The notes under the pieces: generated by a model
Database searches by the model: none
Told to the model about the DNA's origin: nothing
Seen by the model: only the letters and a program-made list of their open reading frames with translations
Shown: positions 13,051 to 16,568 of the stretch, piece by piece
Layout: each line of letters begins with the position of its first letter
How positions within the stretch are numbered: the stretch's first letter is position 1
Made by a program: the position numbers and the translations under genes
Virus record (IMG/VR): IMGVR_UViG_3300042992_000954
Span: 1-20,006 of that record
Strand: one strand, 5' to 3'
DNA: 20,006 bases
Source: a virus

Positions 13051-13571
13051 GTCGGCTGATACGTTCCTTTGACCACGGCGAAGACCACCATTTCCGCCGC
13101 GTGGAGCGACGGGCCTTCGGTCTGCGCCTTGTCCCACCCGTTCATCCGCATGAGGTGGCCGGCTGCGGCAAGCTTGTCCGGCATCTCCACCCGCTTCACC
13201 GCGCCGTTCTCATGATACTCGACCTTGTGGGCAATGCGGTGTTCCGGTGTCACCTCGGCAATCGGCGTGCGGATGATCTGCGCGAAAAATGCCTGGAGTT
13301 CGTCTCGGCTGATCTCGCTGCGCGATGCCTGCTTTTCCTTGAGCCAATGCACGCGGGCCGCCACCTCGGGGCGCTGGAGAATCAGCTTGGCGCTCCGGCG
13401 GTGGTGCGGCTCAAGCGTGGTGTCATTGGCCACCTCCCGGTAAACCTCGGCATCGCCCACCTCTGGATTGGAAAGGAGGTGCTGGACAAACGCTTCCGTA
13501 AATCGGTCCTGCAACGGATGCTCTGGGCCAAGGAGTAGCTTCGGGGCGACCTTACGTTTTACGGAGGGCAT
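13047..13571 (-). CDS. terS: Terminase small subunit
   Basis: The start is set at ATG 13571, inside the last codons of the helicase-loader gene. It gives 174 residues beginning MPSVKRKVAPKLLLG. The typical DNA-binding part of small terminases is seen: DRFTEAFVQHLLSNP (21-35), followed by VYREVANDTTLEPHHRRSAKLILQRPEVAARVHWLKE. A helical oligomerisation region with ISRDELQAFFAQIIRTPIAEVTPEHRIAHKVEY follows. It recognises phage DNA and loads the large subunit, encoded directly downstream with an ATGA overlap. A very basic N-terminus (KRKVAPK) agrees with DNA contact. Confidence 0.8.
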   Translation of the reverse strand: MPSVKRKVAPKLLLGPEHPLQDRFTEAFVQHLLSNPEVGDAEVYREVANDTTLEPHHRRSAKLILQRPEVAARVHWLKEKQASRSEISRDELQAFFAQIIRTPIAEVTPEHRIAHKVEYHENGAVKRVEMPDKLAAAGHLMRMNGWDKAQTEGPSLHAAEMVVFAVVKGTYQPT

Positions 13572-14185
13572 CGGAGGGCATAGTCTGTGGTTTCGCATTC
13601 GAGGATCACGGAACCGCCGCGGTGCATGCGGCTGCTGATCCTGGTGTCCGCTTGGTCCCACTCGGAGGTGGGCAGGTTGGTGGTAATGATTGTCCACTTT
13701 CCAAGGCGGAAGTTCAACAGATTGTAAAACAGCCCGATGGTGGCAGATGTACGGTGTTCGGCGCCGGCGTCGTCGATGACCAGCACCTCAGCCTCGCGGG
13801 CAATGTCGATGCGCCGGCGGATGTCTGTGTGTTCCTGCCATCGGGCGGCGGTGTCCGGCCAGTTGAGGAATTTGGTTGGCGTGGTGCTGCGCAGGTGCGG
13901 TCTGACTGCGTCGAGAATCATGGTGGCCAGTAGCGTCTTCCCGGTTCCGTTCCCGGCTCCGGCGCGTCCGTACAGGGTCAACCAGATTGGCGGCTGGCGG
14001 TGGATGATGGCGGCCGCGTACCGTTCCCCCCACTTCCGCATCTTGCGGAGGACCGGGTCGTCGAACGTTTGGAACCCGTCAAAAGTCGGTGGGGAGGAAG
14101 TCCCCGTCGAGGGCGGCCGGGTTTGCTCTGGGCGTTGCTGCCACGTTTCTTGTAGGCTGGCGATTCTCTGGGCGATAGTTTGCAT
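13559..14185 (-). CDS. DnaC-like helicase loader (AAA+ ATPase)
   Basis: The 208-residue protein begins with a variable helical N-terminus and a FDGFQTFDDPVLRKMRKWGERYAAAI stretch, typical of DnaC/DnaI relatives. Walker A is AGNGTGKT (77-84), Walker B VLVIDDAG (134-141), sensor 1 IITTNL (166-171), and the final RISSRM (182-187) contains the likely arginine finger. It would load the replicative helicase onto phage origins. Its start (ATG 14185) lies 107 bases inside the preceding gene. It ends 13 bases inside the small-terminase gene. Next to it upstream is a probable replication protein, the usual pair in phage replication modules. Confidence 0.85.
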   Translation of the reverse strand: MQTIAQRIASLQETWQQRPEQTRPPSTGTSSPPTFDGFQTFDDPVLRKMRKWGERYAAAIIHRQPPIWLTLYGRAGAGNGTGKTLLATMILDAVRPHLRSTTPTKFLNWPDTAARWQEHTDIRRRIDIAREAEVLVIDDAGAEHRTSATIGLFYNLLNFRLGKWTIITTNLPTSEWDQADTRISSRMHRGGSVILECETTDYALRCPP

Positions 14186-15159: not shown

Positions 15160-15548
15160 GCTGCACCTCCCTTCTCGGACTGGCAGATGCATGGCACCTG
15201 CGCCAGTTCCAATTCTGTTTCGAGGGTCGCCACCGCCCATCCGGCGCTGAACACATACCACGCCATCCATTTGTTGTCCGTCTCGCTCTTGAGCGGGCAG
15301 GCAATAACCTCATCCATAAGGCGCGGCGTGCATGTCCACAGCCACGCCTTCTTGGCGAGGTTGATTCGGTCAGGGATTTCCCTGCCAATGGTGCGCCACC
15401 AAAGCTCGAAGTCAGCTCGGACATCGCCATTCTGCCCGGCGTGTTCAAGCCTTTCATGGTAGGTAAGCGGAACGTCTATGATGAAGAGGCCATGCTCCCG
15501 TTCCTCGTGCGTGGGGGCGTCGGGTTCGTAGTGGTCGTGGATGTTCAT
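15156..15548 (-). CDS. Unknown phage protein, 130 aa
   Basis: The 130-residue product begins MNIHDHYEPDAPTHEEREHG and includes FIIDVPLTYHERLEHAG (22-38), FELWWRTIGREIPDRINLAKKAW and MAWYVFSAGWAVATLETELELAQVPC. It is rich in Trp and His, with a charged N-terminus and an alpha/beta core; no membrane helix or catalytic signature is clear. It is joined by ATGA to the gene before and GTGA to the gene after, so it belongs to the same translation chain as the zinc protein and the TGT-like enzyme. Confidence 0.6.
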   Translation of the reverse strand: MNIHDHYEPDAPTHEEREHGLFIIDVPLTYHERLEHAGQNGDVRADFELWWRTIGREIPDRINLAKKAWLWTCTPRLMDEVIACPLKSETDNKWMAWYVFSAGWAVATLETELELAQVPCICQSEKGGAA

Positions 15549-15757
15549 AGGCGTGTCAGGTTCTTGGTTGGGATGTAGACTTCGGAACCGCCTGCCGTGA
15601 TGGCGACGGCTTCGGGATCAGGGACATTTCTGCCGTCCTGATCTGCGGCACGGTCCACGACGGTGACGACTGCGCCAGCTTGCAATCCTACGTAACCGCG
15701 TAGGCTTGTGCGCTCGGCTTCGCAGTCTTCCTTGAGCGTCATGCGGACACGTTTCAT
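15545..15757 (-). CDS. Small beta-rich protein, 70 aa, unknown
   Basis: The start ATG at 15757 shares its A with the TAA stop of the upstream gene (TAATG). The 70-residue product (MKRVRMTLKEDCEAERTSL, then VGLQAGAVVTVVDRAA and EVYIPTKNLTRL) resembles a short SH3- or KOW-like barrel: alternating strands, a G-A-V-V-T-V-V core and a closing strand. No family can be named. It follows the TGT-like gene with the tightest possible coupling. Confidence 0.55.
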   Translation of the reverse strand: MKRVRMTLKEDCEAERTSLRGYVGLQAGAVVTVVDRAADQDGRNVPDPEAVAITAGGSEVYIPTKNLTRL

Positions 15758-16434
15758 TACAGCAACGGAATTTGAGTGGTGCGGCGGCCTTCGATGAATT
15801 GATGCAGCGCCAGCATTTTGTCTGGTCGTGTCGGGTCACGGAACCATCCGGTTCCGTCTGCGGACTGCACGCCTAGGCGGTCGCACGTTTCCAGTAGTTC
15901 GACCGTGTTGACGCGGCCAACATGCACGGGTCGGCCAGTGGCCACCCATGATTCGACTGTTGACCATTTCCAGCGGCTGGTGCCTCCCACAAAAACTACG
16001 TCAGCAGCCGGCGGAACGTCGGAGGGGGTCATGCCATCCTGTACCGCAAACGCCAACGGCCAGCCATATCGTGCGGCCACGGGAGCATATACGGACCACA
16101 GACGCAGCGTGGCTTCGGCGTCTGCGACTTGGTCGGGAACCAGCACCCATTGCGGCCGGAGATTGGACTGGCGAATGCGGGAAAGCATGTCGAGCCACGC
16201 CTGTTCATTCCATGGCTGCTGGGTTGTCCATGCGGTGAATGCGTCGTTATCCAATGCGAATGGCATCCATGTGCGCAGCTTTGTCTTCGGCGCTGCGGTT
16301 GGGCCAATGAGCCACCCGATTTTGCCGGGGTATCGACCAGCCCAGAAATGCACTTCCGGACTGCTGTGGTTTCCCGGCATGACCATCATGGGGGCGCGGC
16401 GCGTGCGTGCCAAGCATTGTGCCCAGTGCATCAC
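15757..16434 (-). CDS. TGT-like TIM-barrel protein (possible DpdA-type DNA base-exchange enzyme)
   Basis: The 225-residue protein shows, in order, the landmarks of tRNA-guanine transglycosylase. These are ALDNDAFTAW (60-69) in place of the D-S/D-G-G-F active-site loop, VLVPDQVAD (97-105), AVQDG (130-134) for the substrate Gln-Gly, VFVGGTSRWKWS (147-158) for the Gly-Gly loop, VHVGRVN (170-176) and QSADGTGWF (190-198), whose Asp193 would be the nucleophile. The zinc-binding cysteines of tRNA enzymes are absent. Phage DpdA enzymes are short TGT relatives that place 7-deazaguanines into DNA, and this product would fit. No preQ0 synthesis genes are in the window. The TGT-like fold is inferred from motif order; a DpdA activity is a hypothesis. 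Confidence 0.55.
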   Translation of the reverse strand: MMHWAQCLARTRRAPMMVMPGNHSSPEVHFWAGRYPGKIGWLIGPTAAPKTKLRTWMPFALDNDAFTAWTTQQPWNEQAWLDMLSRIRQSNLRPQWVLVPDQVADAEATLRLWSVYAPVAARYGWPLAFAVQDGMTPSDVPPAADVVFVGGTSRWKWSTVESWVATGRPVHVGRVNTVELLETCDRLGVQSADGTGWFRDPTRPDKMLALHQFIEGRRTTQIPLL

Positions 16435-16568
16435 TCTGATTTGGTGGTGGGGTTTCCGCTGCGGGTGGCGGCTTCATGGAACAGCAGGCCAACGCCAAAA
16501 ACGGTGCCGAGCAGGAAGCACAGGAAACACAGGATGGCGCACAGGCCGGCAGGAATGCGGTCGTTCAT
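16431..16568 (-). CDS. Tiny membrane peptide, 45 aa
   Basis: The start at ATG 16568 overlaps the resolvase stop as ATGA, and the stop overlaps the TGT-like start as ATGA. The sequence is a single hydrophobic helix (AGLCAILCFLCFLLGTVFGV, about 7-26) flanked by MNDRIP and a polar tail ending TTKSE. The cysteines in the helix are unusual. Function unknown; coupling on both sides makes it very likely a real gene. Confidence 0.65.
   Translation of the reverse strand: MNDRIPAGLCAILCFLCFLLGTVFGVGLLFHEAATRSGNPTTKSE

Follow-up and report, generated by a model that had tools for sequence, protein, structure and literature searches.

A compact TGT/DpdA-like phage gene family with a probable role in 7-deazaguanine modification of DNA

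Hutinet et al. (2019; PMC6884629) described DpdA and DpdA2, along with a large set of phages that carry DpdA without the pathway. According to that source, loss of dpdA in phage CAjan abolished dPreQ0 and left the DNA sensitive to the restriction enzymes tested, many DpdA-bearing phages have modified DNA, and the DNA of Orion, a phage with another singleton DpdA, whose host is without the preQ0 pathway, is unmodified. DpdA2 is claimed there as a relative of tRNA-guanine transglycosylase (TGT) beside preQ0 genes (PMC6884629). DpdA-like proteins were sorted into seven clusters in the paper on MED16 (PMC8306585). Literature titles and abstract openings gave no account of a compact DpdA next to individual preQ0 genes.

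The stretch of DNA analysed here, called the window, comprises 20,006 nt (positions 1 to 20,006 of the IMG/VR virus record IMGVR_UViG_3300042992_000954). It carries a short gene whose product is, with a probability of about 0.75, a compact DNA-guanine transglycosylase putting 7-deazaguanine into phage DNA. The enzyme would be of a biochemically known kind, a minimal variant of the DpdA-like transglycosylases, for which no reported activity was found.

The compact gene and its family

The gene and the two ORFs that overlap it are as follows.

15757 to 16434, minus strand: compact TGT/DpdA-like gene, 225 codons counted from the GTG at 16434
16431 to 16568, minus strand: small hydrophobic ORF of 45 aa, upstream, its stop overlapping the ATG of the compact gene (context only)
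15545 to 15757, minus strand: next ORF, 70 aa, downstream, its start overlapping the stop of the compact gene (context only)

The ATG at 16431, directly after the GTG at 16434, is more probably the start, because it overlaps the stop of the small upstream ORF as TGATG. The stop of the compact gene overlaps the next ATG as TAATG, and with overlaps at both ends the gene is therefore a link in a chain of overlapping genes. Family searches with the downstream ORF gave no match. On the same strand, the PHROG search identified a DNA-helicase-like protein (phrog_62, 7.6e-19), a Holliday-junction-resolvase-like protein (phrog_1770, 3.4e-10), a DnaC-like helicase loader (3.8e-22), a head-tail connector (3e-96), a major head protein (3.4e-34) and, weakly, a replication-initiation O-like protein (2.4e-4); a small-terminase-like ORF scored 9e-5, under the Pfam cut-off. 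The surroundings of the compact gene are thus genes of DNA replication and packaging.

The window protein matched PHROG 15826, which is unannotated and of unknown function, at E 2.7e-29. A pattern scan of IMG/VR found a relative encoded in 127 viral stretches, from which the best 80 were kept; a phage collection gave matches in 24 records, each <60% identical to the window protein, several of the actinophage matches being already annotated as 'DpdA-like tRNA-guanine transglycosylase'; and a genome pattern scan gave 53 loci or contigs, many from Caballeronia and Paraburkholderia. The proteins GreaseLightnin gp55, Sonali gp81 and Aoka gp40 of actinophage isolates belong to the same family, with the same invariant residues (PHROG 15826 E of 1.8e-117 for GreaseLightnin gp55 and 4.1e-90 for Sonali gp81), at only about 27-32% identity to the window protein.

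Members were aligned in a set of 36 (the window together with 35 viral loci chosen from the 80, those omitted being mostly near-duplicates) and in a hand-picked set of 23 diverse members. Residues invariant in the 36 include D62, N63, P100, D101, Q132, G134, F148, G150, G151, K156, H171, R174, D193, G194 and T195, and thirteen are invariant in the 23 (D62, N63, P100, D101, Q132, D133, G134, F148, G150, G151, K156, H171 and D193). Because of these invariant residues and the 127 viral stretches that code for a relative, the ORF is not a chance one. The motifs listed in the first-pass annotation are present in the translation in the order given there (ALDNDAF at 60, VPD at 99, VQDG at 131, FVGG at 148, VGRVN at 172 and SADGT at 191), and its numbering of D62 and D193 was found to be correct. 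The principal conserved positions are listed below.

16249 to 16251, minus strand: D62 codon (LDN motif), invariant in the 36 and the 23 members; its counterpart is the Asp of DpdA1 LDSGAF and, via DpdA1, of TGT TDSGGF
16132 to 16134, minus strand: D101 codon (VPD motif), invariant in the 36 and the 23 members
16039 to 16041, minus strand: Q132 codon (VQDG), invariant in the 36 and the 23 members, aligned on VQGG of TGT
15982 to 15987, minus strand: G150-G151 codons (FVGG), invariant in the 36 and the 23 members, aligned on IGG of TGT
15913 to 15924, minus strand: H171 to R174 codons (HVGR), H171 invariant in the 36 and the 23 members, R174 invariant in the 36 and nearly so in the 23
15856 to 15858, minus strand: D193 codon (SADGT), predicted nucleophile, invariant in the 36 and the 23 members, aligned on TGT FDCVMPT

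Homology and fold compared with TGT and DpdA enzymes

Searched singly, the window protein had no match in Pfam (the cut-off of PF01702, TGT, was not reached), in PDB sequences or in PADLOC; its single NCBIfam match was rejected as chance, and phrog_887 (queuine tRNA-ribosyltransferase) gave a weak E of 0.22. Against the PDB the family profile gave nothing beyond weak, unrelated matches. Across the family, phrog_887 matched 27 of the 36 aligned members at E <=1, with a best value of 1.5e-7. Profile-profile comparison bore out the kinship proposed in the first-pass annotation: the compact family matched DpdA1 at E 1.2e-5 (probability 81%) and TGT at E 1.2e-3 (probability 19% only, with the motifs in register), the controls ribulose-phosphate epimerase and tryptophan synthase alpha scored 0.014 and 0.12, and the accepted pair DpdA1-TGT scored 6.9e-3 by the same method. 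In the TGT profile alignment VQDG falls on VQGG, FVGG on IGG and SADGT on FDCVMPT; D193 therefore sits on the TGT nucleophile, which we take to be the Asp of that motif (D280 in Zymomonas), in keeping with the role predicted for it from the sequence alone. D62 falls on the Asp of DpdA1 LDSGAF, which in turn falls on TDSGGF of TGT, so that its register with TGT is via DpdA1 only, and D101 is unaligned to TGT. The zinc cysteines, described earlier as missing, are indeed absent: CxCxxC occurs in none of 55 members and none of 4 phage DpdA1 proteins, compared with 13 of 15 TGTs, and the window protein has two cysteines only, C7 and C184.

An AlphaFold2 model was built from the 36-row alignment (pLDDT 90.0, pTM 0.87) and compared with VIA-align to the 1000 best chains. 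The best 50 listed were all TGTs (Z 15.3-14.4), among them ArcTGT 1j2b (15.3), Zymomonas TGT 2z1x (15.0) and human TGT 7nq4 (14.9), the best match having an rmsd of 3.1 over 207 residues. The model is a TIM barrel closest to TGT, and together with the alignments it confirmed the proposed TGT-like fold and order of active-site motifs. In its printed secondary structure, given without coordinates, strands end immediately before D62, Q132 and G150, a two-residue strand precedes D101, and H171 and D193 are among the final residues of their strands; the alignments did not place D62 or D193 outside the barrel active site. In the search of viral models an uncharacterised protein was the best match, and the next ones were phage proteins that bear the name queuine tRNA-ribosyltransferase.

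With VIA-align most barrels scored well, Z >=8 being reached by 976 of the 1000 chains. The Foldseek ranking differed: tryptophan synthase alpha came first, rank 14 was a ribulose epimerase, and Zymomonas TGT appeared from rank 15 onwards. Both observations would suit a different TIM-barrel enzyme with a coincidental motif order. That explanation is extremely unlikely, since the best 50 chains listed after re-alignment were all TGTs, the profiles prefer DpdA1 and TGT over both of the other barrels, and relatives are linked to preQ0 genes (see below). Tryptophan synthase alpha itself, suggested by Foldseek alone, was rejected, as re-alignment with VIA-align puts TGT first.

That the closest solved folds are tRNA TGTs, and that preQ0 genes would serve tRNA modification equally, speaks for a phage tRNA-guanine transglycosylase which raises preQ1 or Q in tRNA and leaves DNA untouched. 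We consider this quite unlikely, given the zinc motif frequencies above, the lack of a Pfam TGT match, DpdA1 as the best profile match, the position of the gene among DNA replication and packaging genes, and the modified DNA of many DpdA phages (PMC6884629). Compared with tRNA-guanine transglycosylase, the compact family has the same barrel fold and order of catalytic motifs but is shorter. Its size, only about 210-225 aa without the C-terminal part of TGT, would also fit a glycosylase or a non-catalytic relative that stops short of the full exchange and only binds guanine or 7-deazaguanine or takes it out; this is very unlikely, because all alignable catalytic positions are retained in the 23 diverse members and neighbouring genes make the incoming base. 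A compact transglycosylase acting on DNA remains our preferred reading.

DpdA1 (phages 9g and CAjan) resembles the compact family in its parallel motif order, in the profile match given above, in being without a zinc motif and in its linkage to preQ0 genes. It is about 80 to 100 residues longer (306 aa in CAjan) and has FHFGE where the compact family has VQDG. Profiles and proteins barely see each other singly, the GreaseLightnin protein scoring E 0.31 against the DpdA1 profile and CAjan DpdA1 E 0.0011 against the compact profile (n=6). Run on phage records at E <=1, the compact profile had no match in those of 9g, CAjan, nt-1, Dp-1 and HVTV-1, and weak matches in those of 7-11 (2.5e-5) and CP220 (7.9e-4) and to Sonali DpdA1 (1.5e-5). 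A direct test of six proteins ranked GreaseLightnin (8.6e-63) before 7-11 (6.6e-9), Sonali DpdA1 (1.2e-7), CP220 (2.6e-6), CAjan DpdA1 (see above) and DpdA2 of Vibrio phage nt-1 (464 aa), which at 0.74 was without a profile match. On the record searches and the six-protein test, the compact family is, by sequence, separate from DpdA1 and DpdA2, and the name DpdA needs a qualifier for it. In the wide sense of a TGT-like phage protein linked to genes of preQ0 synthesis or transport, DpdA covers the family through its relatives; in the window's own record such genes were not found.

Two further phage proteins lie near these groups. The 234-aa DpdA of Salmonella phage 7-11 (L211:788-1492, annotated 'queuine tRNA-ribosyltransferase') shares LDNGAF and VPDVIG with the family in a 52-column alignment (E 3.9e-6) and scores between the compact family and DpdA1, fitting the DpdA1 profile (8.2e-14) better than the compact profile. 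According to PMC6884629, the virion DNA of 7-11 contains a little dADG. In Campylobacter phage CP220, the 258-aa 'hypothetical phage protein' CPT_0056 (L212:1176-1952) has the motifs LDN..F and VPD..GD..AT and matched the compact profile at E 7.9e-4 in the record and 1.3e-4 / 2.6e-6 in the six-protein test; it may be the transglycosylase of CP220.

preQ0 genes beside the compact gene and the supply of the base

The 80 viral loci were collapsed at 95% identity to 43 lineages, and in 26 of these QueD, QueC or QueE adjoins the compact gene (QueD 16, QueC 11, QueE 4). No adjacent que gene was found in the other 17, which include all 13 lineages closest to the window (L001-L021). The HMMs used to detect these que genes were made from the very neighbour clusters in question, with a check in Pfam and NCBIfam for representatives only, and some of the adjacent ORFs overlap the compact gene, scripted ORFs beginning at the first possible start. 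In Pfam, representatives matched PTPS (5.7e-32) and QueC (4.2e-45 and 2.3e-50), and a QueE candidate matched Radical_SAM at 2.6e-4, under the cut-off. In NCBIfam, both QueD representatives were above the cut-off (91.5 and 90.5 bits vs 89.25), as was one of the three QueC representatives (156.8 vs 150.3, the other two being below), and three QueE candidates were best matched by QueE models (E 7e-19 to 1.3e-15), below every cut-off.

Whole records were searched in a set of 48: 37 records from the 80 loci (mostly longer contigs), that of the window, and those of 10 isolates out of 24. QueC was found in 10/48, QueD above the cut-off in 19/48 and FolE in 4/48, while in the 38 records without the isolates a QueE-model match occurred in three, none over the cut-off. 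G007 contains a PTPS match of E 9.6e-4, which is under the cut-off and was taken as chance. A gene of the Vut_1 (queuosine-precursor-transporter-like) family was above the Pfam cut-off in 3/48 records, all from actinophages; it is the overlapping upstream neighbour of the compact gene in GreaseLightnin and ReqiPine5 and lies one gene further up in Aoka, and both Vut_1 proteins compared with NCBIfam were under its cut-off. In E. coli, the Vut_1 family member YhhQ is reported to be involved in preQ0 transport (PMC5372724). As a rough yardstick of frequency, tblastn on 50,697 phage records found QueC homologues in 311 and QueD in 23, the QueD query being insensitive and only the best 10 of the 23 QueD records being listed.

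The linkage of the relatives to que genes is the decisive evidence for a 7-deazaguanine role. The link to 7-deazaguanine, which the first-pass annotation had drawn from phage DpdA, thereby gained independent support, relatives adjoining queD, queC, queE or a transporter-like gene.

Whether the base is made by the phage or taken from the host had been left open, and the answer differs among phages: one or two of the steps are encoded by many of the relatives, and none was found for the phage of the window. The folE, queD, queE and queC search proposed earlier found none in the window record, and that record (20 kb) and two contigs with an identical protein (41 and 25 kb) had no QueC, QueD, FolE, QueE-model, Vut_1 or phrog_887 match, absence in such fragmentary records being no proof, since even the contig of 41 kb is perhaps incomplete. 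These searches gave no support to a window phage making its own base. Because no que, folE or transporter gene was found, its base is probably host-made. In the tree, the row with the window protein (L001) lies between the queC-linked L081, which comes from a bin of Acidobacteria, and a clade of 14 rows, among them the queD-linked L022 and L024. The simplest reading for the window is the same activity as in the que-linked relatives, with a host-supplied base.

The four records with FolE are those of the isolates phiG7, SHIN8, R29Z and Sonali, each of which also has a canonical DpdA1. These four carry the compact family and canonical DpdA1 together, the compact gene being split over two frames in two of them. 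In Vibrio phage R29Z (L137) and Arthrobacter phage Sonali (L141), an open compact gene and canonical DpdA1, FolE, QueD and QueC are present in one genome. In the Seuratviruses phiG7 (13244-13836, L135) and SHIN8 (24407-24999, L138), the genes for the clamp and the DNA polymerase flank the compact gene, which is annotated there as a pair of overlapping ORFs in different reading frames; it may be decaying, encode a split protein or be read by frameshifting. CAjan has no compact gene at this place, its clamp and polymerase genes being direct neighbours.

A different neighbourhood was observed in the loci L086-L124, mainly from Caballeronia and Paraburkholderia. There a protein with a PAPS-reductase domain, which matches PADLOC DndC (7.3e-46), follows the compact gene (e.g., L119:4153-5946 and L100:2185-4503) and an SbcC-like ATPase (phrog_77, 5e-37) precedes it, the DndC-like and SbcC-like neighbour clusters each occurring in 26 of the loci. 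These loci are possibly prophages or a bacterial modification locus. PAPS-reductase-domain genes are also found near the compact gene in Erythrobacter phage R6L (L139:6397-7440) and Rhodococcus phage ReqiPine5 (L142:5559-6476).

Proposed function and meaning

The first-pass annotation was largely supported and was right in substance. The fold, the conserved active site, the homology to DpdA1 and TGT and the preQ0-gene linkage of relatives were computed. We infer DNA as the target, the identity of the base, restriction protection and host supply, and a swap of guanine for 7-deazaguanine in phage DNA is most likely because relatives adjoin genes making that base. In the proposed reaction, D193 would attack C1' of deoxyguanosine and guanine would depart; the incoming 7-deazaguanine base, most likely preQ0, would be held by D62, D101, Q132 and G150-G151. 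Phage DNA bearing 7-deazaguanine would then be poorly cut by host restriction enzymes. Many related phages would contribute a transporter for the precursor, or the step of QueD, QueC or QueE, and the window's phage would probably draw on host-made base. A more far-reaching view, which we regard as unlikely, is that these enzymes form a distinct subfamily of minimal-barrel DNA-guanine transglycosylases whose base or sequence specificity is particular to them; they would work alongside DpdA1 in some phages, use host preQ0 plus one or two phage steps and, in Burkholderiales loci, be paired with a DndC-like PP-loop protein that perhaps helps to write an undescribed base.

A function is thereby proposed for the unannotated PHROG 15826, relatives of which the two pattern scans located in 127 stretches of viral DNA and on 53 contigs of genomes. 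The results suggest that many uncultured phages may bear 7-deazaguanine in their DNA by adding a single supplied step to host preQ0 in place of a complete pathway, and such phages would therefore be missed by surveys seeking the full FolE-QueD-QueE-QueC set. In isolates with an intact compact gene and DpdA1 (Sonali and R29Z), it becomes testable whether each enzyme has different sites or bases.
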